Assembly (NCBI GenBank): GCA_017303905.1
Contig: JAFLBH010000004.1
Location: 248,001-312,000 of the forward strand
DNA length: 64,000 nt
Origin: Bacteroidota bacterium
Lineage (GTDB): Bacteria; Bacteroidota; Bacteroidia; B-17B0; Aurantibacillaceae
Direction of reading: 5' to 3'
Shown: piece after piece, positions 3,650 through 53,930 of the stretch
Numbering within the stretch: the first letter of the stretch is position 1
How the letters are laid out: every line of letters starts with the position of its first letter
Notes under the pieces: generated by a model
Databases searched by the model: none
What the model saw: only the letters and a program-made list of their open reading frames with translations
Told to the model about the DNA's origin: nothing
Translations under genes and position numbers: made by a program

Positions 3650-4095
3650 AGACAATAGCATTTACAACAATTTCACTTGCCATACTTCTTTTTGTTTCCG
3701 GATTTAAATACAGAAAAAGTGAAGTAAAAGTTGAAGGAGGAATCCAATTTTTTACCGGAACATGGCAACAAGCTTTGGATAAAGCTAAAAAAGAAAATAA
3801 ATACATTTTTCTTGATGCCTATGCTAGTTGGTGTGGGCCATGCAAAATGATGAAAAATAAAACCTTTGCAGATAAAGCTGTGGGAGATTTTTACAATAAG
3901 AATTTTGTTTGCATTGCAATCGACATGGAAAAATCCGGAGATGGATCTGCATTAGCGGAAAAATACTCCGTAGAAGCTTATCCTACTTTAATCTATTTAC
4001 AACCTGACGGTAAATTCATAGGAAAAGCAATGGGCTTTCGTAAGTCAAAAGAATTTTTAGAAATGGGCGAACAAGTTGTTGCAAAAGCAAAATAA
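3646..4095 (+). CDS. exported thioredoxin-fold protein (WCGPC)
   Basis: A 149-residue protein with a signal peptide (hydrophobic residues 5-20), then a thioredoxin domain. The active site WCGPC is at residues 62-66 and the cis-proline loop AYPTL is around Pro113. The two cysteines and the cis-Pro are intact, so a dithiol/disulfide role in the periplasm is likely, as in DsbD-gamma or thioredoxin-like reductases. It starts on an ATGA overlap with the gene before it. It is followed after 1 base by a second thioredoxin-fold gene without a signal peptide, giving a periplasmic/cytoplasmic pair. Confidence 0.85.
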   Translation: MKTIAFTTISLAILLFVSGFKYRKSEVKVEGGIQFFTGTWQQALDKAKKENKYIFLDAYASWCGPCKMMKNKTFADKAVGDFYNKNFVCIAIDMEKSGDGSALAEKYSVEAYPTLIYLQPDGKFIGKAMGFRKSKEFLEMGEQVVAKAK

Positions 4096-4096
4096 T

Positions 4097-4720
4097 ATGG
4101 AATTAGAAAAAATATTTAAATCTGCTTTAAGTTACGCAGAGTACAGAGAATTAGTAGATAACCTGATTGCAGGTGGTAAAACAACAGGTAACACTCAAAG
4201 CGAAAAGTTGCTTGAGTTTACCAAGTTGAATGTTCAGCGAATGAATCGACTTGATAAAACAGTTCAATTGAGTTCAGATGCTATTAATAAATTTAAGTCG
4301 CAATCTCACCCCGTGAATATGCTTTTAATTGGCGATGCGTGGTGTGGTGATTGCGCACAAATAATCCCCGTAATTAATAAAATTGCCGAGAGTTCAGAGG
4401 GCAAGTATAACTTTAAAATAATATCAAGAGATGCTTATCCCGGATTGATTGATAAATATCATTCAAATGGAGCGAAAGCTATTCCCAAGCTTTTAGTACT
4501 ATGTAATGAAACAGGTGAATTGTTGTGTACATGGGGGCCACGACCAACCCCGGCACAACAAATTATGTTGAACTGGAAAGAAAATAAGGATACTATAACT
4601 TGGGAAGATTTTGAGAAAGAATTGCATTTATGGTATGCTCGAGATAAAGGACAAACAATAATAAATGAGTTTACCCAGTTAATGGCACAATGCGAAAGGA
4701 AAACTATTTTACAGCCTTAA
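4097..4720 (+). CDS. cytoplasmic thioredoxin-fold protein (WCGDC)
   Basis: A 207-residue protein without a signal peptide. NMLLIGDAWCGDCAQIIPVI holds a CxxC at residues 83-86, followed by the cis-proline region AKAIPKLLVL and the phrase TWGPRPTPAQ, typical of a Bacteroidota/Firmicutes thioredoxin family with C-G-D-C. A long helical N-terminal extension of about 70 residues precedes the fold. An in-frame TTG at 4076 lies inside the preceding gene; the ATG at 4097 is preferred. The substrate is unknown. The 3' end overlaps the small membrane-protein gene by 31 bases. Confidence 0.82.
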   Translation: MELEKIFKSALSYAEYRELVDNLIAGGKTTGNTQSEKLLEFTKLNVQRMNRLDKTVQLSSDAINKFKSQSHPVNMLLIGDAWCGDCAQIIPVINKIAESSEGKYNFKIISRDAYPGLIDKYHSNGAKAIPKLLVLCNETGELLCTWGPRPTPAQQIMLNWKENKDTITWEDFEKELHLWYARDKGQTIINEFTQLMAQCERKTILQP

Positions 4721-37579: not shown

Positions 37580-39061
37580 TCACAGTCTGGTTTCGTTCTC
37601 GAAAATGGATTCTGTAATGCTTGCATCATCACGGTAACAAGCAATTCCTCCCCAGTTAAATATTTTTTTCTGATATACCCATGCGTCCCCTTCCTTTACC
37701 AACACTCTTTTTACGATAACAACTCCATTGCCTGTAATTATTTCTTCAGTTAAGCCTAACGGGTATTTTGCAAGGATAGCTTTTATATGCTCTGCATTTT
37801 TCGTAGGCGATTCCGTAGTTTTCTTTTTTAAATAAGCGGCGTCACTCTCATAGGTAAGAGCATCTTCATAGCTCTTTTTTATTGCATAAATATACTCCGG
37901 TTCCAGGTTTACAGCTCTTGTTATCGCGTCATTATATTTTTTATCATTTCCCGGAAACTCTCTGCTTACAAATTTATTGATGGCAACAATTTGTGTTTTA
38001 GGCAATTTCTCATTTGGGAAAAGTTTTAAAGCATCATAATATACCTCCTCTGCTTCAGTCCATAATTTTTTCGCCATCAAGCCTTCGGCCAGTTTTAGTA
38101 AGTCTGAATATTTTTTCGTTAACTCATCCATCTTAGCAATTTCTTTTTTCTGTTCCTCATCCTCTACAATGGCTTTTTCAATTGCGATAAGTTTATATTT
38201 TGGATATTGCTCATCTTGCTTCAACGCCGAAGCTTCTGTGTAACTTTCCTTTGCGATCGACCAATTTTGTGCTTTAAATGCCTCATCACCCTTTCTTAAA
38301 AGTTCAGAATAATTTTCTTCTAAAGCTTTTGCAGCAAGTACCTCTTCAGCTTTTTTCGCTAACTCTTCCCTCTTCTTAAAACAATCGCCAACTTTCTCCA
38401 TTTGCGTTACAGGATATTTCTCCGCCGGGAGCATAGCCATTGCACTTTCATACATTTTCTTTGCAAGAGAGCAATCTCCATTTTTCACAGCTTCATCACC
38501 CTCTTTATTGGCTTGGCAAAAATTATTAATCAATTCCATTTCATTCGCCTCTATTCTTGCAACAAGCGCTAAACCTTCCTTTGTATACATTTCTTCATCA
38601 CCGAAGTTTCTATCTTTTGGTATATAAACAATTTTCGCTAATGTTTGCTCCAAAGCTGAATAATCAACTCCGGGTAAAGGCTTCGATAATATAAACCCTT
38701 CTATGCTAATATTTGGTTTGAAATTATCCTTTTGAATTTCTTCAGGAACATTATTCGTGTTAATAAATATGCGTTTAGTAACGCATCCCGGAGAGGCCAC
38801 TGTTAAAATAAATTCACCGTTTCCGGGAATAAAAATGCTAAAGTAGCCGTCACCATCACTCATAGCTTGATCGATAACGGAATTTCCCTTATAAAGCTTA
38901 ATAGCGGCACCTGATAAAAGTACTTCGTCTTTAACAGCCTTCGTGTCAACAATGTATTTGCGGTAACCGATATGACTGGTGATTTTTAACGACCATTTTT
39001 GGGCGCTAGCTAAATAAACGCTTAACAAAAGCAGGCTTAATAATAAATTACGACTTTTCAT
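37580..39061 (-). CDS. secreted repeat protein, short paralog (4 TPR-like units)
   Basis: A 493-residue protein. The signal peptide (1-20, ending A-S-A-Q) is followed by a carboxypeptidase-regulatory-like beta domain (about 40-115: AIKLYKGNSVIDQAMSDGDG), the motif PGVDYSALEQ, and four TPR-like units of about 48 residues. Unit 2 reads RKGDEAFKAQNWSIAKESY, then KQDEQYPKYKLIAIEK. The C-terminal domain contains GVVIVKRVLVKEGDAWVYQK and ends WGGIACYRDDASITESIFEN. The same three-part plan occurs in the 42684-46472 gene, so the two are paralogs. An in-frame TTG at 39067 is rejected in favour of ATG 39061. Function unknown; expected in periplasm or at the outer membrane. Confidence 0.8.
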   Translation of the reverse strand: MKSRNLLLSLLLLSVYLASAQKWSLKITSHIGYRKYIVDTKAVKDEVLLSGAAIKLYKGNSVIDQAMSDGDGYFSIFIPGNGEFILTVASPGCVTKRIFINTNNVPEEIQKDNFKPNISIEGFILSKPLPGVDYSALEQTLAKIVYIPKDRNFGDEEMYTKEGLALVARIEANEMELINNFCQANKEGDEAVKNGDCSLAKKMYESAMAMLPAEKYPVTQMEKVGDCFKKREELAKKAEEVLAAKALEENYSELLRKGDEAFKAQNWSIAKESYTEASALKQDEQYPKYKLIAIEKAIVEDEEQKKEIAKMDELTKKYSDLLKLAEGLMAKKLWTEAEEVYYDALKLFPNEKLPKTQIVAINKFVSREFPGNDKKYNDAITRAVNLEPEYIYAIKKSYEDALTYESDAAYLKKKTTESPTKNAEHIKAILAKYPLGLTEEIITGNGVVIVKRVLVKEGDAWVYQKKIFNWGGIACYRDDASITESIFENETRL

Positions 39062-39176
39062 TTTCAATATAAAGGAAGTGAATAGTACAATGTCTTCATG
39101 TTATTAAAAAACAACTTCTAAACCACTGACTGTTAATTGTCCGTACAGTTAACATTGATAGACTATGACCAATCTT

Positions 39177-40541
39177 TTAAAGCTGAAGTGACGTAGCTAA
39201 AGCTTTGAAATCAACACCATCAAAATTACCCGAGCTCATCATTAACAATACAGCGTTATTCCATTTTTTTTCTTGTAAGTACTTCACAACAGAAGCGCTA
39301 TCTGTAAAAACTTTCAAATCCTTGCGGTCAAAGGCTTTTAATACTTGTTCTTCGGTAATAGGTTTTAGCTTTTTATGGGCAATTGTGTGAGGATTGTAAT
39401 ACACAATGGCTTCATCGGCAGTATTCATCGCTCCCTTATACTCATTCAGAAACTCTTCAGTTAAACTACTAAAAGTATGCAATTCCATACAAGCCACAAT
39501 ATAACGTCCGGCGAATTGCTGCTTTACCGCCGCTGTGGTTGCTTTTAACTTTGAGGGTGAATGCGCAAAATCTTTGTAGAAATTAAAATGTTCTTGTTTA
39601 TGCACTAATTCCAAGCGCTTGGCTGCTCCTTTAAAGCTTTGAATAGCATTATAAAATTGATCATCCGAAATGCCAACCTGATTACACACCATGCGTGCAC
39701 CATTTAAATTCATCAAGTTATGATCACCAAAAATCAAAAGTGGAATTTCCTTACCGTTTACCGGCAGATAAGTTGTTCCATCTACAATTTTATTGGGAGG
39801 AACACTATAAGGGAACTTCTTTATTTGGTTAGCAGTACCTGCCTTTTCTGCCACCTTCACTAATTCTTTATCCTCGTGGCAATACACAAGCGAGCCGTTC
39901 GGTTCTATTAAATTAACGAACTGTGTAAACTGGTCGACATAAATATCAAAAGTGGGAAACACATTAATATGATCCCAGGCTATTCCGCTTAATAAAGCAA
40001 TGTTAGGGTGATACAAATGGAATTTTGGTCGGCGATCGATGGGTGAAGCGAGATACTCATCACCTTCAATCACTGCTACTTTTGCTTCTTTGGTTAATTT
40101 CACCATGGTTTCAAAACCTTCCAATTGTGCACCTACCATGAAATCAGTATCCATTTTATTGTAATTAAGTACATGCAAAATCATTGCCGTAATCGTTGTT
40201 TTACCATGACTACCACCAATTACAATTCGTGTTTTATCTTTTGTTGCTTCGTAAATATATTCGGGATAGGAGTATATTTTCAATCCCAATTCTTTGGCGC
40301 GTATTAATTCAGGATTATCAGCACGTGCATGCATACCAAGGATTACTGCATCAATATCGGCTGTAATTTTCTCGGGGAACCAACCAATTTGAGAAGGCAA
40401 CAAGCCCTTTTTAGCCAAACGACTTTTAGAAGGTTCGTTGATTTCATCATCGCTGCCTGAAACAATAAAACCTTTTTCATAAAGAGCTAAAGCCATGTTG
40501 TGCATGGCGCTTCCTCCAATGGCAATTAAGTGTACGCGCAT
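39177..40541 (-). CDS. mpl: UDP-N-acetylmuramate:tripeptide ligase (Mpl)-like
   Basis: A 454-residue Mur ligase that reattaches recycled tripeptide to UDP-MurNAc. It opens with a Rossmann-like HLIAIGGSAMHNMAL, as in MurC/Mpl. The ATP loop is IGGSHGKTTITAM (residues 108-120), followed by VIEGDEYLASPIDRRPKF and the Mpl-type FYKDFAHSPSKLKATTAAV. Together with anmK at 50436 it points to peptidoglycan recycling. MurC itself is less likely because the DFAHSPSK and EGDEYLAS segments fit Mpl better. Monocistronic on minus, between the two repeat-protein genes. Confidence 0.88.
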   Translation of the reverse strand: MRVHLIAIGGSAMHNMALALYEKGFIVSGSDDEINEPSKSRLAKKGLLPSQIGWFPEKITADIDAVILGMHARADNPELIRAKELGLKIYSYPEYIYEATKDKTRIVIGGSHGKTTITAMILHVLNYNKMDTDFMVGAQLEGFETMVKLTKEAKVAVIEGDEYLASPIDRRPKFHLYHPNIALLSGIAWDHINVFPTFDIYVDQFTQFVNLIEPNGSLVYCHEDKELVKVAEKAGTANQIKKFPYSVPPNKIVDGTTYLPVNGKEIPLLIFGDHNLMNLNGARMVCNQVGISDDQFYNAIQSFKGAAKRLELVHKQEHFNFYKDFAHSPSKLKATTAAVKQQFAGRYIVACMELHTFSSLTEEFLNEYKGAMNTADEAIVYYNPHTIAHKKLKPITEEQVLKAFDRKDLKVFTDSASVVKYLQEKKWNNAVLLMMSSGNFDGVDFKALATSLQL

Positions 40542-40626: not shown

Positions 40627-41643
40627 TTACTTCACGATTTTAACGGTATAAGAGCCTGTATTAGCCGCGTTATAAACCGTTTCGTAAATTGAAATATATA
40701 ACATGCCGCTTGATTTGGCAGTACCGCTGAATTTAGCGCCTGCTTTTAACGTTTCAGTACTGGCATCGCCAATATGATAAACAACATTTCCATAGGAAGG
40801 ATAAGTAGTTCCGGTTCCTTCTTCAGAAGCAGTAGCAGGATAAGACGTACCATTGGTTGCTACATAACTTCCATCTGGTTTGTATTTTTGATTGCTTAAA
40901 CTTGCCAATGTAACTTCTCCGGTAGCAATAATGGTGAATTTTTGTCCCTGCTTTAATGTAACACCTGTTTTTAACCAACCTCCATTTTGATTGGAACTAA
41001 TATGTTTTGTGGCCATCAATTTAAAAGTTAACTCCCCTGCTCCGCCGGCACTGATAACAGAAACATCCACGCTTTTAATTTTCTCTTTTGGTACACTTAA
41101 ATTTCCATATTCGGTTTTTACATCCAATTTAGTAAAAGCAAAAGTACCTCCCATGGTGTATTGTCCGTCGATGGTAACAATATCATCCACCTCAGCGCCT
41201 TCTTCTATATTAGCGGAAGAGTGTAATTCGGATAATAAATTATCGATAGTAAATTCACCTGTATACGATGAATTTTCATTGTAATTTTTCGGATCGCTAT
41301 TGAAATCGGAAACTGCTGAAATCGCTTTTGCACCTAATTTTACGATGTCATTATAAGCAGCTTTGCGGGCATCATCGTTAGTGGAAGTATTCAACACTTT
41401 TAAAAACCCTAGAGCTTTATCGGCTACCGCTTTATCACGACCTATTCCGACTTTAATCGTGCTCACATTAGCTACCGGAATAATTAATTTTCCGTATGAT
41501 GTGTTCAGTTCTACATCACCCATCATGGATGTTCCTGTTATCACATTTCCATCCAATAAATTTAATTTTACCTCAACCGATTTTTGTTGGGCTGTTAAAT
41601 CAAGGCTTAATAATAAACCCGTTAAAACAATAAGCTTTTTCAT
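40627..41643 (-). CDS. secreted protein with PA-IL (LecA)-like C-terminal domain
   Basis: A 338-residue protein. The signal peptide (about 1-18, ending L-T-A-Q) is followed by two similar about 45-residue modules: first LDGNVITGTSMMGDVELNT with SYGKLIIPVANVSTIKVG, later IDGQYTMGGTFAFTKLDVKT with EYGNLSVPKEKIKSVDV. A C-terminal domain follows at about 220-338 (GWLKTGVTLKQGQKFTIIA, then NVVYHIGD, AKFSGTAKSSGMLYISIYE and NTGSYTVKIV). The last part matches the PA-IL-like galactose-binding lectin fold in motif order; the calcium ligands were not checked. It may bind sugars in the periplasm. It lies between Mpl and the methyltransferase gene. Confidence 0.7.
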   Translation of the reverse strand: MKKLIVLTGLLLSLDLTAQQKSVEVKLNLLDGNVITGTSMMGDVELNTSYGKLIIPVANVSTIKVGIGRDKAVADKALGFLKVLNTSTNDDARKAAYNDIVKLGAKAISAVSDFNSDPKNYNENSSYTGEFTIDNLLSELHSSANIEEGAEVDDIVTIDGQYTMGGTFAFTKLDVKTEYGNLSVPKEKIKSVDVSVISAGGAGELTFKLMATKHISSNQNGGWLKTGVTLKQGQKFTIIATGEVTLASLSNQKYKPDGSYVATNGTSYPATASEEGTGTTYPSYGNVVYHIGDASTETLKAGAKFSGTAKSSGMLYISIYETVYNAANTGSYTVKIVK

Positions 41644-41710: not shown

Positions 41711-42676
41711 TTACTTCACTTTGCGGGCAACTACCATCATCTCTTCGCCAATATTGAAGAATGACAATAAGTTATAGATGATATTGTGGATAAAAACGAA
41801 GAGTTTTAATTGCCACATTGGTCGGGAAGTAAATTTATTAAAGTAATTCTGGCGTTCTGAGGCTTTGATTTCATAATTGGCCTCTTGCGTTGTTTTAGCC
41901 TTTGAAGTGCCCTTTATCCGTTTTAATAAAGGTAAAATGGTATACATGATAAACAACTTTAATTCAAATGAGGATTTAATTTTTTCCACCTTGAAACCAT
42001 ATTTCTCTAATAGTATGGTAATGGTATCCTTACCGAAATAATTGACGTGATCGAGTCCCATCATTTTCCAGTTGTCTTTATGCTTCTTGGCGAAATAACT
42101 ATCGATTTGAGGAACCTGTAATACAAGTATTCCGTCTTTCTTTGTGATACGTGCAATTTTCTCGACAAACTTATCGGCCTCATCAATGTGTTCCAATACA
42201 TCCCAAAGTGTAACGATGTCGTATTGCTTATCTTCCTTCATCGCGAAGAAATCGATATGATCAACCGGTAATTTTAAATCGTTTTTCGAATACAAATACG
42301 GTTGCTCTGAAATCTCGATGCCATACACGTTATATCCCAACTCTTTTCCGGCCAACATGAAGTGTCCCCAACCAGCTCCTAAATCAAATAAATCACCGGA
42401 AGATTTATACTTCTTAATAAAATCAAAACGTAATTTGTGTCGTTGCACCTTCACCCAGTTATTACCCTGACGAACAGCTTCCGTTACTTTTTCATCCTTA
42501 TAATTTCCGTAATTGATTTTTTTACGGTAATAAGGTGGAATGAAATGCAAATTGCAGGAATTACAAGTAACGACCGCAAAATTTGATTTTTGGTATTTAA
42601 CAGTAAATGCTTTTTTATCGGTATTGCCACACACGCAACAACGTATGTCCTCAAAAATATTTTCGCTCACTTGCAT
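41711..42676 (-). CDS. zinc-ribbon class I SAM methyltransferase
   Basis: A 321-residue enzyme. The N-terminal zinc ribbon (CCVCG, then CNSCNLHFIPPYY) is of the type fused to sugar or surface-polysaccharide methyltransferases. The cofactor motif is LFDLGAGWGHFMLAG, then VYGIEIS and IVTLWDVLEHID. A C-terminal hydrophobic stretch (YTILPLLKRI, then IIYNLLSFF) may associate with the membrane. The substrate is unknown. Two ATGs are possible, 42706 and 42676. The second clears the preceding stop (42684) by 7 bases, so it is used. Confidence 0.82.
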   Translation of the reverse strand: MQVSENIFEDIRCCVCGNTDKKAFTVKYQKSNFAVVTCNSCNLHFIPPYYRKKINYGNYKDEKVTEAVRQGNNWVKVQRHKLRFDFIKKYKSSGDLFDLGAGWGHFMLAGKELGYNVYGIEISEQPYLYSKNDLKLPVDHIDFFAMKEDKQYDIVTLWDVLEHIDEADKFVEKIARITKKDGILVLQVPQIDSYFAKKHKDNWKMMGLDHVNYFGKDTITILLEKYGFKVEKIKSSFELKLFIMYTILPLLKRIKGTSKAKTTQEANYEIKASERQNYFNKFTSRPMWQLKLFVFIHNIIYNLLSFFNIGEEMMVVARKVK

Positions 42677-42683
42677 AGGCCCA

Positions 42684-45600
42684 TTAAGGCTTCGTTTCGT
42701 TTTCAAAAATTAATTCGGTAATTGGATTTCCATCACGGAAGTAGGAAATACCACCCCATGAAAACACTTTCTTCTGGTAAATCCAAACATCACCATCTTT
42801 AACAACCGCTCTTTGGATAATGGTAACACCTTGTCCGTTTATGACTTCTTCAGTTACACCCGGAGGATATTTTGCTAAAAGTTCCTTCTTACGGTCGGCA
42901 GTTTTCACTTGTGAATCAGAGTTCAATAATTTTTCTATTTCTAACAAGCGTCCTTTTGCATAAGCATCACCGCCTTTATAGGTAAGTGCCTCTTCATAAT
43001 GTGTTTTTGCTTCTTTGTATTGTTTGCCGTTAAAATTATTATCTGCTTTTGCAATCGCATCCTTGTATTTTTGCTCATTTGGATCGTTAGCGCCGCTCAT
43101 GGCTTTATTGATAGCACCAATTTGCATCTTAGGATATTTTTCATCCGGCAAATACTGTAATGCCTCGTAATAAGCTGCTTTAGCTTCTACCCAACTCTTC
43201 TTTGCAAATAAACCATCTGCTTTTTTAACGATGGCATCATACTTTGCCCTTAATTCAGCAAGCGCTTTTGCTTCACCTTCTTTTGCAATTTCAGCTTCAA
43301 TGGCAGCTAATCGAACTTTTGGATATTGTTCTTCCGGTTTTAAGCCGGATGCTTCGATGTAACCTTCTTTTGCTGTTACCCATTCTTTCTTCGTGAATGC
43401 ATCATCACCCTTTTTAATGGCTGCCGCGTATTTTGCATCCTTCTCTGCTTTCGCTTTTGCATCACCTTCCGCTTTTGATTTATTCGCTAACTCATCTGCA
43501 ATCGCTTTTTCAATTTCTGCTAATTTATCTTTAGGATATTGTTCTTCCGACTTTACAGTTAATGCTTCATTATATCCGGCCTTCGCATTTGTCCAATCTT
43601 TCTTCGCGAAAGCCGCATCACCCTTTTTAATAGCGGCGGTGTATTTAGCATCGAGTTCAGCTTTTGATTTATTGGCATTGTCTGCCGCAATAGCTTTTTC
43701 GATTTCTACTAATTTATCTTTTGGATATTGTTCTCCCGGTTTTACACCAAGCGCATCATTATATCCTGCTTTGGAAGTGGCCCAATCTTTCTTCGCAAAA
43801 GCATCATCACCCTTTTTGATGGCTGCATTGTATTTTGCGTCCAACTCTGCTTTTGATTTATTCGCGTTCTCATCTGCAATGGCTTTATCAATAGCTGCGA
43901 GTCTGTCTTTAGGATATTGTTCATCCGGTTTGATACCTAAAGCTTCATTGAAACCGGCTTTTGCATTCGTCCAGTTTTTCGCGTTAAATCCGTCATCTCC
44001 CTTCTTAATGGCAGCTGCGTACTTCGCTTCCTTCTCTGCTTTTGATTTTGCATCTGCATCGGCTTTTGCTTTGGCTGCCGCTTCATCCGCTAACGTTTTA
44101 TCAATAGCTGCAATTTGATCTTTAGGATATTTTTCAGCTGGCTTAAACCCTAATGCTTTATTGTAAGCTGCTTTTGCATTTGCCCAATCTTTACTTGCAA
44201 ATCCGGCATCACCTTGCTTAATCGCCTCTTCGTACTTCGCATTTAATTCTGCCTCCGCCTTTGCTTTAGCAGCAGCATCCATATTTGCTTTTTCATCCGC
44301 AATCGCTTTATCTATTGCGGCTAATTGCGATTTTGGATAAGCTTCGTTTGGTTTGAAACCTAAGGCTTCATTGTAACCCGTGCGAGCTGTTGGCCAATTT
44401 TTTGCAGCGAATGCTTCATCGCCTTTTTTAATAGCCGCTGCGTATTTCGCTTCTAATTCTGCTTTCGCCTTCGCATCCGCCTCTGCTTTTGCTTTATCTG
44501 CTTCTGCTTTAGCTTTTGCGGCGGCTTCATCAGCTAAGGCTTTATCGATGGCTGCAATTTGATCCTTTGGATATTTTTCTGCCGACTTATAACCTAATGC
44601 TTCGTTGTATGCTGACTTTGCATTTGCCCAATCTTTCTTCGCAAATCCTTCATCGCCCTTTTTGATAGCAGCTGCATACTTCGCTTCCAATTCCGCTTTT
44701 GCCTTTGCATCACCTTCCGCTTTTGCTTTAGCGGCAGCTTCATCTGCAATCGCTTTATCAATAGCGGCTAATTTATCTTTAGGATATTGCTCATTTGCTT
44801 TAATTGTGAGAGCTTCATTGTATCCGCCTTTAGCGTTTGTCCAATCTTTTTGTGCGAAGGCATCATCACCTTTTTTAATCGCGGCGGCGTATTTAGCGTC
44901 GAGTTCAGCTTTTGATTTAGCAGCGTTTTCATCAGCAATAGCTTTATCGATAGCGGCTAGTTTATCTTTAGGATATTGTTCATTTGCCTTAATTGTTAAT
45001 GCTTCATTATAGCCACCTTTCGCAGTTGCCCAATCTTTTTTTGCGAAAGCATCATCACCTTTTTTGATAGCTGCTGCGTATTTTGCTTCTAATTCTGCTT
45101 TTGCTTTCGCGTCGGCATCAGCTTTTGCTTTAGCAGCAGCTTCATCAGCCATTGCTTTATCAATGGCAGCCAGTTGTGTTTTTGGATACTGCTCTGCTGA
45201 TTTTAATCCGCTTGCTTCTGTATAAGCGGCTTTTGCGTTCGCCCAATCCTTTTTCGCGAAACCTTCGTCGCCTCGCTTAATAGCTGCGGCATACTTCGCT
45301 TCTAACTCCGCTTTATTTTTTGCTTCGGCATCTGCTTTAGCTTTGGCGGCGGCTTCATCGGCAATCGCTTTATCGATGGCTGCAATTTTATCTTTTGGAT
45401 ATTGTTCAGCAGGTTTAAAACCTAATGCTTCATTATATCCGGCTTTTGCTGCTGTCCAGTTTTTCGCATTGAAAGCGTCATCGCCTTTTTTTACTGCAGC
45501 TGCGTATTTAGCATCAAGTTCAGCTTTACTTTTATTCGCTGCTTCATCAGCAATCGCTTTATCAATCGCTGCTAATTTATCTTTCGGATATTGCTCGCCC

Positions 45601-46472
45601 GGTTTATAACCTATTGCTTCATTATATCCCAATTTCGCGGCCGCCCAATTTTTTGCATTGAAAGCATCATCTCCCTTTTTGATAGCTGCCGCATATTTAG
45701 CATTCAGTTCAGCTTCCGCTTTTGCTTTAGCAGCTTCTTCCGCTGCCTTCTTAGCATCTTCTTCTTTCTTTTTGTTTAATGCTTCTTGCTCCTTGATGAT
45801 TTTATCAATTTGAGTCATCTGATCCTTTGGCCAGGTTTCATTTGGCTTTAAACCCAATGCTTGTGTATAAGCAGCTTTTGCTCCTGCCCAATCATTTTTC
45901 TGGAAGGCTTTATCACCGGCTTTGATCGCTGCTTGGTAATTTCTCTCGAGTTGTTTAGCGCGTTCAATGGCTGCTGCCTGTTGTGCCATAATATTCTGCA
46001 ATGAAGCAATCATTGCATTCAGATAATTCGCATCGTATTCAAAATTTTCTTTATTGGCGTTGTAGGAATATTTATTCATTGGCTGATTAAGCGCAGAATA
46101 ATCAATCCCTTCCATTTTTTCGAATAAACTTAAACTAGCTTCAACGGTTCCGAATTTAGACGTTGCTCTATCAGGAGGAACACCCTTCGTACTAACCGTA
46201 AATTTTTTTGATACATGCCCGGGTTTGGTAACCGTTACCACATAATCAGCATTAAGCGGTAAATCGAATTGATAACTTCCGGAACCATCTGTGGTAATGT
46301 TTTTAATCACTTGTCCGTTTTGAGAAACCTGAATGATAGCACCAGGCATCGGTGTATCTTCCAGATTTGTAATAGTACCCTCTACATGCAAGGGAAAAGT
46401 AGGCGCATCCTGAGCATAGGCAATAGAAATTAAGACCCAGAAGGTAACTATTAAAAATTGCCTAAATTTCAT
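42684..46472 (-). CDS. secreted giant TPR-repeat protein, long paralog (15 units)
   Basis: A 1262-residue protein. Signal peptide at 1-20 (ending A-Y-A-Q); carboxypeptidase-regulatory-like domain at about 30-110 (EGTITNLEDTPMPGAIIQVS); motif EGIDYSALNQ at 121-130; Gln/Ala-rich helix at about 150-176. Fifteen TPR-like units of about 48 residues follow at about 177-1181, of the form KYAAAIKKGDDAFAKKDW, A-x-A-x-x-x-Y-x-E-A, then EQYPKDKLAAIDK, spaced by Ala/Lys-rich coiled-coil linkers of varied length. The C-terminal domain is about 55 residues (GVTIIQRAVVKDGDVWIYQK and ISYFRDGNPITELIFENE). The repeat region has a base and residue use unlike its neighbours. Role unknown, perhaps a periplasmic scaffold. 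Confidence 0.85.
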   Translation of the reverse strand: MKFRQFLIVTFWVLISIAYAQDAPTFPLHVEGTITNLEDTPMPGAIIQVSQNGQVIKNITTDGSGSYQFDLPLNADYVVTVTKPGHVSKKFTVSTKGVPPDRATSKFGTVEASLSLFEKMEGIDYSALNQPMNKYSYNANKENFEYDANYLNAMIASLQNIMAQQAAAIERAKQLERNYQAAIKAGDKAFQKNDWAGAKAAYTQALGLKPNETWPKDQMTQIDKIIKEQEALNKKKEEDAKKAAEEAAKAKAEAELNAKYAAAIKKGDDAFNAKNWAAAKLGYNEAIGYKPGEQYPKDKLAAIDKAIADEAANKSKAELDAKYAAAVKKGDDAFNAKNWTAAKAGYNEALGFKPAEQYPKDKIAAIDKAIADEAAAKAKADAEAKNKAELEAKYAAAIKRGDEGFAKKDWANAKAAYTEASGLKSAEQYPKTQLAAIDKAMADEAAAKAKADADAKAKAELEAKYAAAIKKGDDAFAKKDWATAKGGYNEALTIKANEQYPKDKLAAIDKAIADENAAKSKAELDAKYAAAIKKGDDAFAQKDWTNAKGGYNEALTIKANEQYPKDKLAAIDKAIADEAAAKAKAEGDAKAKAELEAKYAAAIKKGDEGFAKKDWANAKSAYNEALGYKSAEKYPKDQIAAIDKALADEAAAKAKAEADKAKAEADAKAKAELEAKYAAAIKKGDEAFAAKNWPTARTGYNEALGFKPNEAYPKSQLAAIDKAIADEKANMDAAAKAKAEAELNAKYEEAIKQGDAGFASKDWANAKAAYNKALGFKPAEKYPKDQIAAIDKTLADEAAAKAKADADAKSKAEKEAKYAAAIKKGDDGFNAKNWTNAKAGFNEALGIKPDEQYPKDRLAAIDKAIADENANKSKAELDAKYNAAIKKGDDAFAKKDWATSKAGYNDALGVKPGEQYPKDKLVEIEKAIAADNANKSKAELDAKYTAAIKKGDAAFAKKDWTNAKAGYNEALTVKSEEQYPKDKLAEIEKAIADELANKSKAEGDAKAKAEKDAKYAAAIKKGDDAFTKKEWVTAKEGYIEASGLKPEEQYPKVRLAAIEAEIAKEGEAKALAELRAKYDAIVKKADGLFAKKSWVEAKAAYYEALQYLPDEKYPKMQIGAINKAMSGANDPNEQKYKDAIAKADNNFNGKQYKEAKTHYEEALTYKGGDAYAKGRLLEIEKLLNSDSQVKTADRKKELLAKYPPGVTEEVINGQGVTIIQRAVVKDGDVWIYQKKVFSWGGISYFRDGNPITELIFENETKP
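42930..45944 (-). repeat. 15-unit coding repeat array
   Basis: The DNA that encodes the TPR-like units of the 42684-46472 protein. Units are 48-49 codons plus linkers of 0 to about 25 codons. They differ in many silent and coding positions, so this is an old expansion with continuing change, not a recent perfect tandem array. Units 5 and 6 are nearly identical in protein (GGYNEALTIKANEQYPKDK in both) and mark the youngest visible duplication. Confidence 0.85.
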
Positions 46473-46528: not shown

Positions 46529-47683
46529 ATGACAATTCCGACAAGTAATTCAAACCTTTCTGTTAATATAAGTTATTGGGAGTTGAAACATTACTTTTCA
46601 TTAGCTGATTTAATTGTCGTAGGGGCGGGAATCGTTGGGTTAACTGCTGCTATTGAGTATAAACGCAAACACAAAAAAGCAAAAGTTTTTGTTTTGGAAA
46701 GCGGCATTATACCAATGGGTGCCAGCACTAAAAATGCGGGATTTGCCTGCTTTGGCAGTCCGAGCGAATTACTCGCTGATTTAAAGAAAATGCCGGAAGA
46801 TAGTGTATGGGAAACCGTTCAAATGCGTTGGAACGGACTTCAGCTTCTGAGAAAAAATTTGGGCGATAAAAACATCGATTTTCATAACTGGGGCGGATAT
46901 GAGCTTTTCAATACAAACAAGAGTTTTGAGTTATGCTCTGAAAAGCTAAATTATTTGAATAAAAAATCGAAGGAATACATCGGCAAAAGCAATTGTTATT
47001 CGATCGCCAACAAAAGCATTAATAAGTTTGGATTCAACGATTTAAGTGGTGTTATTTTAAATAAACATGAAGGTCAGATTGACACCTCAAAACTATTCAC
47101 TCAACTTGCGGAATTAGCTCAAAAAACGGGCATTGAAATCATTTCAGGTGTACATGTAAATGAGTTGAAAGATTTAAAATCCGGCGTCGAACTCAACACC
47201 GGATTTGGTGTGTTTAAATGCAAAAAATGTATAGTTGCCATCAACGGATTTGCAAAAGAACTGCTGAAGATAAAAGACGTTGCTCCTGCCCGTGCGCAGG
47301 TTTTAATCACAAAGCCTATTAAAAATTTAAAGATTAAGGGGACTTTTCATTACGACGAAGGATTTTATTATTTCCGGAATATTGATGGTCGATTATTATT
47401 TGGGGGCGGACGAAACCTTGATTTTGAGGGTGAAACCACGACTGAGCTTAAGGTGACGCCAAAAATTCAAAATCAATTGGAACAACTTTTAAAAACGGTT
47501 ATTCTTCCAAAACAAAAATTTGAAATTGAACACCGTTGGGCCGGAATTATGGGTGTTGGCAGCGAAAAACGACCAATTATAAAAAACTACAGCGCAAACA
47601 TTGTTTGCGCTGTAAGAATGGGTGGTATGGGTGTTGCCATTGGCAGCTTAGTAGGAAAAGAAGCTGCTCAACTTGTTTCTTAG
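46529..47683 (+). CDS. FAD-dependent oxidoreductase (DAO family)
   Basis: A 384-residue flavoprotein of the D-amino-acid/glycine oxidase fold. The dinucleotide loop is IVVGAGIVGLTAAIEY (29-44) and the FAD segment is VLESGIIPMGASTKNAGFACFG. It ends MGGMGVAIGSLVGKEAAQ. Substrates of close relatives are amines or amino acids. The N-terminus has about 25 residues before the loop, so a later start cannot be excluded; ATG 46529 gives the longest frame. Its stop overlaps the convergent CBS gene stop by 4 bases. An 11-bp perfect inverted repeat lies inside its 3' end. Confidence 0.84.
   Translation: MTIPTSNSNLSVNISYWELKHYFSLADLIVVGAGIVGLTAAIEYKRKHKKAKVFVLESGIIPMGASTKNAGFACFGSPSELLADLKKMPEDSVWETVQMRWNGLQLLRKNLGDKNIDFHNWGGYELFNTNKSFELCSEKLNYLNKKSKEYIGKSNCYSIANKSINKFGFNDLSGVILNKHEGQIDTSKLFTQLAELAQKTGIEIISGVHVNELKDLKSGVELNTGFGVFKCKKCIVAINGFAKELLKIKDVAPARAQVLITKPIKNLKIKGTFHYDEGFYYFRNIDGRLLFGGGRNLDFEGETTTELKVTPKIQNQLEQLLKTVILPKQKFEIEHRWAGIMGVGSEKRPIIKNYSANIVCAVRMGGMGVAIGSLVGKEAAQLVS
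47589..47613. repeat. perfect 11-bp inverted repeat inside the FAD oxidoreductase gene
   Basis: ACAGCGCAAAC, loop ATT, GTTTGCGCTGT. It is fully symmetrical, with high stability for an AT-rich coding region, about 70 bases before the stop codon. It lacks a T-run, so it is not a standard terminator. Confidence 0.75.
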
Positions 47684-51881: not shown

Positions 51882-53930
51882 ATGCGTCAGTTTATATGTT
51901 TCCTTATTGTTCTATCATTTTGTTTTAGCACGGTGTCGGCGCAAACCAATCGTTTTTTACGTAAAGCGGCTCGCTCAACCGAAAACGGCTATTTAGAAAA
52001 AGCGAAGGAGTATTATTTAAAAATACTTTCTACAGATAAAGATAACTATAAAGCGAATGTAGGCTTAGGCATTACATTATCTGAGTTTCAGGATCAATAC
52101 GAAGAAGCCTTACCTTATTTGGAAAAAGCTTATGCACACACACCAACAGATACTTTACCGGATTTATTATATGCTTTGGCAAAATGTTATCAGCATGCCG
52201 GTCAATTCGAAAAAGCAATTGGGTTTCTGGAAAAATTAAACGGAGCAGTCGCTCTCGATGAAGAGGATAAATACTTTCAATTAGACTTAAGCAAAAGAAA
52301 ACAAGATTGTGCCTATGCCATGGCGAACAACTCTGTTACCTCTCAAAAGGAATGGTATGTGATAAATTTGGGCTCGAGTATTAATTCAAAAATGCCGGAA
52401 TATGTTCCTGTAATCACACCCGATAATGAATTACTTTTTACTTCCCGTCGTAAAGATCATGAAAAAGAAAAAATAAACGATCTGGATGGAAAATATTTTG
52501 AAAGCATGTACATCAGTAAAATCGATAATGGAAAATTTGAAACGCCTCGTCGTTATACCATTCCCGATTTATTCATGAGCTCTAAATTCCGTAAGCACCA
52601 CGAATCGGTAATTTCTATGTCACCTGATGGAAAAAAATTATTTGTTTACCGTGATAATAAAATTTATGAAATTGAAATTTCCGAAGTGAAAAAAGCGGAA
52701 CCAAGAAAACTTTCTAAAAACATCAACTTCGACTCCTATCAAAATCATGCCTATTTGAGTAAGGACGAAAAACAATTGTTCTTTACCAGTGAAGCAAAAG
52801 GCGGATACGGCGGACTTGACATTTATTGCTCGGTTAAGGGAAGCGATGGCGTTTGGGGTACACCAGAGAATTTAGGTCCCAATGTAAATACTCCTTACGA
52901 TGAAGACGCTCCATTTTTAAGTAACGATGGAAAAACCTTATTCTTCGCTTCCAGAGGATTACCGGGTTATGGTAATTTCGATTTATATCAATCTGAATTA
53001 GGTGCCGATGGTAAATGGGGTCCTCCACAAAATTTAGGCATGCCTATTAATTCGCAAGCGCATGATATTTTCATGGTGCAGAATAAAGATGGAAATATTG
53101 GCTACTTCTCCTCTGCTCGTCCGGGCGGAAAAGGTGATATGGACATCTACAAAATCAATTATTTAAAAGATTACAACAAACGTTGTGAAACGGATGAAAA
53201 TCCTTTGTTAAGCATCAAAACAGAAACCATTTCCTCAGCTGATAACCGTTATGCCTTTACTGCAACAGTACCGGATTATTTAAAAGTTTTAAAATATGAG
53301 TGGAAGGTTAATAACAGCGACACGAAAGACACGGAAAATTATGCTGAAGCAGTTTTTTCAGGTGGAAGCGATAATAACGTAAAGCTACGCGCCTTCGCCT
53401 ATTGCGATACTTGTTTTGAACCGATCGTATTGTGTAATATTGTGCGTGTTAATGTTGTGGCAACACAATCTGTTGATGTGTTAGCAAACAATAATGGTGG
53501 AAACACCGGTGGCATTCTTAACGAACTCAAAAACTTTAAAGGTAAATTAAGTAAAGAGCAATTAGCCGCTTTAGGATTTAATGTAACTCCTGTGCGCTTC
53601 AACTTCAACGCTTCTGACGTGCGTGAGGATGCAAAAACGATTCTCGATAAAAACATTGAAGTTTTAAAAGCCAACCCCGATTTGAAAGTGGAAGTATATG
53701 GTTACGCCGATACGCAAGGTCGTCCGGGATATAACAAAAATTTATCCGACAAGCGCGCGCGCAACATTAAAGATTACATGGTACAAAACGGCGTGAACAA
53801 AAAACAGATTATTGTTGTTATCGGTAAAGGAGCAACCAATTTGGTGAATGATTGTGTACGTGGTGAAGAATGTGATAAAGAGCACAATGAAATGAACCGT
53901 CGTGTTGAATTTACCGTAATTAAAAAATAA
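51882..53930 (+). CDS. TPR/PD40/OmpA outer-membrane protein, PorE-like
   Basis: A 682-residue protein. The signal peptide (about 1-20, ending V-S-A-Q) is followed by TPR-type repeats (about 25-125) and a PD40 propeller (about 150-430) with ISMSPDGKKLFVY, GGLDIYCSV, APFLSNDGKTLFFASRG and FDLYQSE. A beta-sandwich follows at about 440-530. The OmpA domain is at about 565-682: VYGYADTQGRPGYNKNLSDK, quoted at its core, and MNRRVEFTVI, a peptidoglycan-binding fold. This is the domain order of T9SS accessory PorE and its relatives. It probably anchors a secretion or motility complex to the cell wall. No lipobox Cys is seen, unlike PorE. Confidence 0.84.
   Translation: MRQFICFLIVLSFCFSTVSAQTNRFLRKAARSTENGYLEKAKEYYLKILSTDKDNYKANVGLGITLSEFQDQYEEALPYLEKAYAHTPTDTLPDLLYALAKCYQHAGQFEKAIGFLEKLNGAVALDEEDKYFQLDLSKRKQDCAYAMANNSVTSQKEWYVINLGSSINSKMPEYVPVITPDNELLFTSRRKDHEKEKINDLDGKYFESMYISKIDNGKFETPRRYTIPDLFMSSKFRKHHESVISMSPDGKKLFVYRDNKIYEIEISEVKKAEPRKLSKNINFDSYQNHAYLSKDEKQLFFTSEAKGGYGGLDIYCSVKGSDGVWGTPENLGPNVNTPYDEDAPFLSNDGKTLFFASRGLPGYGNFDLYQSELGADGKWGPPQNLGMPINSQAHDIFMVQNKDGNIGYFSSARPGGKGDMDIYKINYLKDYNKRCETDENPLLSIKTETISSADNRYAFTATVPDYLKVLKYEWKVNNSDTKDTENYAEAVFSGGSDNNVKLRAFAYCDTCFEPIVLCNIVRVNVVATQSVDVLANNNGGNTGGILNELKNFKGKLSKEQLAALGFNVTPVRFNFNASDVREDAKTILDKNIEVLKANPDLKVEVYGYADTQGRPGYNKNLSDKRARNIKDYMVQNGVNKKQIIVVIGKGATNLVNDCVRGEECDKEHNEMNRRVEFTVIKK

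Follow-up and report, generated by a model that had tools for sequence, protein, structure and literature searches.

The window, a stretch of 64,000 nucleotides from a Bacteroidota bacterium, holds two genes on its minus strand, both intact open reading frames and separated by 3616 bp, that encode proteins of one plan. The larger (42684..46472; 1262 residues), delineated by its open reading frame, profiles and a structural model, begins with a signal peptide (residues 1-20; 46413..46472) that, as read from the sequence, ends in AYA before Q and has no lipobox. This is followed by a carboxypeptidase regulatory-like domain (CRD; residues 30-92; 46197..46385; PF13620 E 1.4e-10, above cut-off), the motif GxDYSALxQ (residues 122-130; 46083..46109), an array of 15 TPR-like units located with a unit profile (residues 179 to about 1185; 42918..45938) and a C-terminal domain, CT, for which alignment, profile and AlphaFold2 agree (residues 1199-1262; 42687..42878). 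The small paralog (37580..39067; 495 residues), delineated in the same way, has a cleavage-like ASA before Q in its signal peptide, again with no lipobox cysteine, a CRD-like domain (residues 50-99; 38771..38920) that scores below the PF13620 cut-off (E 0.014) and has fold matches including carboxypeptidase D domain II, the same G-x-DYSAL-x-Q motif, four TPR-like units placed by model and unit profile (residues 183 to about 420; 37808..38521), the fourth degenerate, and a CT domain identified by alignment and model (residues 432-494; 37586..37774). The two CT domains are 63% identical over the last 64 residues. The common plan proposed in the initial annotation, from signal peptide to C-terminal domain, is thus confirmed by the open reading frames, Pfam and alignment, and it is far beyond chance, since many other genomes have proteins built alike. 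Two antisense open reading frames on the plus strand (43393-44118 and 44605-45012) simply mirror the reading frame of the repeat.

Between the two rod genes, all on the minus strand, lie a MurC/Mpl-like Mur ligase (39177..40541), which scores below the cut-offs for both murC and mpl, a secreted protein of 338 residues in the same co-directional run (40627..41643), and a SAM methyltransferase (41711..42706; PF13489). The large gene is flanked on its other side by a divergent FAD oxidoreductase of the DAO type (46529..47683, plus strand). The order of FAD oxidoreductase, CT gene and methyltransferase is kept in the family to which the window belongs.

Repeat units and the spacing between them

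Counting units by profile upheld the numbers first proposed, 15 in the large protein and four in the small, where three units are found at E 0.02 and the degenerate fourth at E 0.05. The unit length originally given, about 48 residues, fits the TPR core of about 46 residues and not the repeat period, which runs from 58 to 81 residues and is mostly 63 or 71; the successive spacings in the large protein are 81, 63, 71, 71, 63, 71, 78, 70, 71, 63, 63, 71, 63 and 58 residues. The DNA contains true tandem repeats with periods of 189 and 213 bases, in agreement with the protein period. Unit 1 is a distinct cap and units 14-15 are distinct as well, with units 2-13 being interchangeable interior copies, some of which look recent (the adjacent units 5-6 are 93% identical in protein and 85% in DNA). 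Identities of 78% and 63% connect units 1 and 15 with the terminal units of a relative (L013). The closest relative of unit 3 of the small paralog within the large protein is unit 14, so that the small protein resembles a rod in which the two ends enclose a single interior unit where the large one has twelve, and we infer that it serves as a short version of the large rod.

AlphaFold2 models of the two proteins have mean pLDDT values of 79 and 90, and neighbouring units are predicted to share a helix, the last of one continuing into the first of the following unit. These inter-unit helices measure 48 and 45 residues in the small paralog, and those of the large protein 50 and 42, alternating with helices of 14 residues; in the model a short loop interrupts the final junction of the large array, between units 14 and 15. 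The CT domain is modelled as one helix plus five strands and follows a joint of low confidence. The angle between units is not fixed by these models, which have pTM values of 0.45 and 0.39 from alignments of 9 and 14 sequences. Taken singly, the units resemble three-helix folds of the TPR and MIT/Fis1 type (Z 9-10; 1.5-2.4 Å across 55-65 residues), and the TPR assignment also agrees with weak, consistent Pfam TPR matches below cut-offs, whereas the whole array gives an rmsd of about 25-40 Å. The architecture shares with the canonical TPR superhelix the TPR helix pair in each unit and differs from it in having one TPR per unit and, in the model, helices of 42-50 residues that separate the TPR pairs in place of stacking. 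Spectrin-type repeats are three-helix units with continuous helices between them. The rods resemble them in this architecture and differ in that their units are TPR-like and mostly 56-81 residues long.

We collected 617 unit-to-unit distances across the family and found that they cluster at 56/57, 60, 63/64, 67 and 70/71 residues, with smaller groups at 53, 76-79, 81 and 92. The best period is 3.55-3.65 residues (R = 0.71, n=617), which is one turn of an alpha-helix, and when each length is counted once per family the signal persists (86 pairs, R = 0.46, permutation p = 2e-4). The phase is nearly the same in all 15 families compared. The distance from the head to the first unit has the same periodicity, and the distance from the last unit to CT has none (R 0.05-0.14) and therefore serves as an internal negative control. 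The linkers, which were originally described as Ala/Lys-rich coil of varying length, do vary, but mostly in whole alpha-helical turns and not as loose coil. Read together with the structure prediction, these distances suggest that linkers lengthen or shorten by whole helical turns; a change of this kind would give every unit the same rotation and leave the rod rigid from the head to the last unit. The earlier proposal of an extendable rod is therefore supported by the quantised spacing and by the predicted continuous helices. Such a rule is a sign of rigidity at the level of sequence, for which no structure is needed.

Arrays of this kind might also grow by replication slippage with no mechanical role, and the tandem, in part recent-looking interior copies are what such drift would leave behind. 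However, slippage predicts neither a nearly constant phase in 15 families nor the loss of the period between the last unit and CT, and the gene is a core gene of the window's family (CT is present in 59 of 62 near-complete genomes, covering all 10 genera), which makes this reading very improbable.

A replaceable middle between constant ends

At the conserved locus, TPR arrays of 12-15 units occur in one genus (the window, L012, L013 and L014), and in other genera one to four TPR units are combined with coil rich in Ala, Lys and Glu (L019, L020, L080, L083, L084 and L087). The head and CT are retained with either kind of middle. At other loci (L022-L025) the middle is nearly absent and the whole proteins are about 290-330 residues long. 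Because a TPR array in one genus takes the place of coil in others at one locus, the middle appears to act as a spacer. If the units were instead a docking platform, with their number setting the capacity for many copies of a ligand, their match to TPR and MIT/Fis1-type folds would be readily explained. The replacement of units by coil at an orthologous locus, with the ends kept, speaks against this, as does the maintenance of phase between units, which is more than binding alone needs, and we consider such a platform improbable.

In a comparison using one genome per species, 15 units with identical spacing are found in one genome of the same genus that is nearly identical in sequence, and related species carry 12 or 13. 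As interior units are interchangeable and the ends distinct, unit number changes when interior copies are gained or lost. With middles across the wider family ranging from about 70 to >1800 residues, the initial suggestion that repeat number is tuned is not supported. Periscope proteins of Gram-positive bacteria are made of all-beta domains and are anchored at the surface. In these, the number of near-identical repeats between fixed ends sets the length of the rod (PMC8201768), and the present proteins are alike in this; they are unlike them in having helical units and an equal number in one same-genus pair, where Periscope length varies within a species.

The constant C-terminal end has a distribution of its own. 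A search with a CT profile detects the domain in 170 of 395 Bacteroidia genomes and 70 of 197 genera, and in only 3 of 247 genomes of a second, phylum-wide sample, so the family is lineage-restricted and not phylum-wide; in both samples many Bacteroidia are entirely without it. We collected 112 CT proteins from 24 families. CT ends every one of them, with at most 17 residues after it, which together with the identity between the two paralogs bears out the conserved C-terminal end that had been noted at the outset. The head, CRD with the DYS motif, is found in 90 of the 112, and of the remaining 22 most are truncated where their contig ends, with a few beginning differently, for example with MORN repeats (L109) or plain coil (L106). 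The MORN example is a secreted protein of 997 residues that combines MORN repeats, coil and CT. The genome of the window has two clear CT proteins, and these, being secreted, with a CRD head and a C-terminal CT, belong to the family.

That no named family has this plan was also correct as far as we could establish: profile searches found no counterpart of CT in Pfam or NCBIfam, even using 27 diverse members, and a sequence search found no relative in the PDB; the searches by fold were taken up by matches to the TPR part of the proteins. None of the 112 proteins has CT fused to an enzyme, a check that had been proposed with the original description, and a literature search returned no paper on the CT rod family. 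The parts (CRD, TPR and helical spacer) are known; to judge from these searches, what is undescribed is CT itself, the family that it marks and the helix-turn rule of the linkers. CT is thus an unnamed domain marking a widespread family that current libraries miss and that is nearly universal in some environmental Bacteroidota families.

Several other identities were considered and set aside. A match of the large protein to myxococcal TraC (NF040658, 132 bits, cut-off 500) is one of low-complexity coil. A phage origin was rejected, with the small paralog having no match in phage records and the large protein none in PHROGs. Membership in TolA is excluded by a cleavable-looking signal peptide and by the lack of any TolA family match in Pfam or NCBIfam. 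Like TolA domain II and comparable periplasmic helices, the rods have two end domains held apart by a long helical stretch that is rich in Ala, Lys and Glu and varies in length; they differ in having TPR units and neither a membrane helix nor the TolA C-terminal domain. Membership in PorE/CHU_0125 was likewise dismissed, with NF052230 matching the CRD only (16.6 bits, cut-off 600) and no OmpA or PD40 match.

Possible place in the cell envelope

The neighbourhoods of CT genes offer two kinds of candidate partner. The first is the 338-residue protein encoded between the two rod genes, proposed on co-occurrence and adjacency: CT is present in 28 of the 29 genomes that have this protein, compared to 170/395 overall (Fisher p = 2.6e-10, without correction for kinship). 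In three further families its gene comes next after the CT gene, no more than about 150 bp downstream. A PA-IL/LecA-like nature of its C-terminal part is hinted at by Pfam in one of six members (E 0.16), with no support from the PDB, and we treat it as a lead only. The protein also contains two similar short segments. The second kind is found in two families, where CT genes stand in tight co-directional runs with OmpA-PD40 genes of the PorE/CHU_0125 type (L064, L068 and L070), these being 5-70 bp from neighbours in the run or overlapping them. PorE-type genes accompany CT in these two families only, and most other neighbours of CT genes are unrelated housekeeping genes. The window itself also encodes a PorE/CHU_0125-like OmpA-PD40-TPR protein (51882-53930; 252 bits, cut-off 620), at a distance of about 5 kb from the gene for the large rod.

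PorE binds peptidoglycan (PMC7192894), and CHU_0125 is required for outer-membrane integrity (PMC5891637). Like the rods, proteins of this type are secreted and contain TPR and CRD domains, and in two families they are encoded beside a CT gene; the rods have no beta-propeller, OmpA domain or lipobox, and PorE has neither a long array nor CT. The combination of PorE-type neighbours with a CT that is not a T9SS tail favours a periplasmic or outer-membrane-associated rod. In the arrangement that we favour, and to which we give about even weight, the proteins would form an undescribed Bacteroidota family of secreted, stiff rods of variable length, with a CRD head leading into a chain of TPR-like three-helix units and a CT, tethered by a flexible joint, that probably attaches to a fixed envelope partner, for which the 338-residue protein and, in two other families, the PorE/CHU_0125-like proteins are candidates. 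The rod would most likely be a spacer or scaffold on the periplasmic side, tied to the outer membrane or to peptidoglycan. The longest members, with a middle of >1800 residues, would if fully extended exceed the width of the periplasm, and so a simple strut from membrane to membrane cannot fit all of them.

The main rival is a surface stalk, in which the rod would cross the outer membrane by another export route and project the CRD head or CT from the cell, in the manner of Gram-positive Periscope proteins, with CT acting as a new anchor or sorting domain. The invariably extreme C-terminal position of CT, also behind other heads such as MORN repeats or plain coil, speaks for this, the rods are long and of variable length, and variable-length rods are known as surface devices (PMC8201768). 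SprA is present in 168 of the 170 genomes with CT, but as it is found in 385/395 genomes anyway, its co-occurrence with CT is uninformative. CT is, moreover, unrelated to the type A and B tails of T9SS (hhalign 1.7% and 1.0%, compared to 73% for an A versus B control), and the two CT proteins of the window's genome stand against at least 197 matches to such tails (at least 150 of type A and 47 of type B), a very large set of secreted cargo. Export as T9SS cargo by a type A or B tail can itself be discarded, given these hhalign values, the absence of any TIGR04183 or TIGR04131 match in NCBIfam and the fact that CT proteins are not among the tails listed. On this evidence a surface stalk by a different route seems comparatively unlikely.

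A more specific version of the periplasmic spacer, which we put forward with considerable doubt, is that CT rods, the 338-residue partner and PorE-type proteins together make up a hitherto undescribed envelope scaffold of Bacteroidota that spaces or braces the outer membrane and the peptidoglycan, its length being determined by phase-locked helical units. One recent study reports that tol-pal loci could not be identified in Bacteroidetes and suggests PorE as the tether between outer membrane and peptidoglycan (PMC12204202). If the rods do brace the envelope, they would help to explain how Bacteroidota retain their outer membrane without Tol-Pal.

Further proteins with the same head, and a recurrent neighbour

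Elsewhere in the window's genome (C1, L009 4546-8423) a second pair of proteins, of 817 and 432 residues, has the same head and motif and ends in a long coil and TPR instead of CT; a short NlpC/P60-looking protein (4048-4524) is encoded within 22 bp after this pair. Another short protein of this genome (L011) has the same head and one unit, and a secreted protein of 309 residues (C3, L010 2359-3288) has a CRD followed by a segment with the look of a TonB-receptor plug and no barrel. In other genomes, a DUF4846 protein is encoded near the CT gene in three families (L056 5018-6046, L060 6022-6921 and L075 4496-5482), the scan for this domain (PF16138) having been made in L056.
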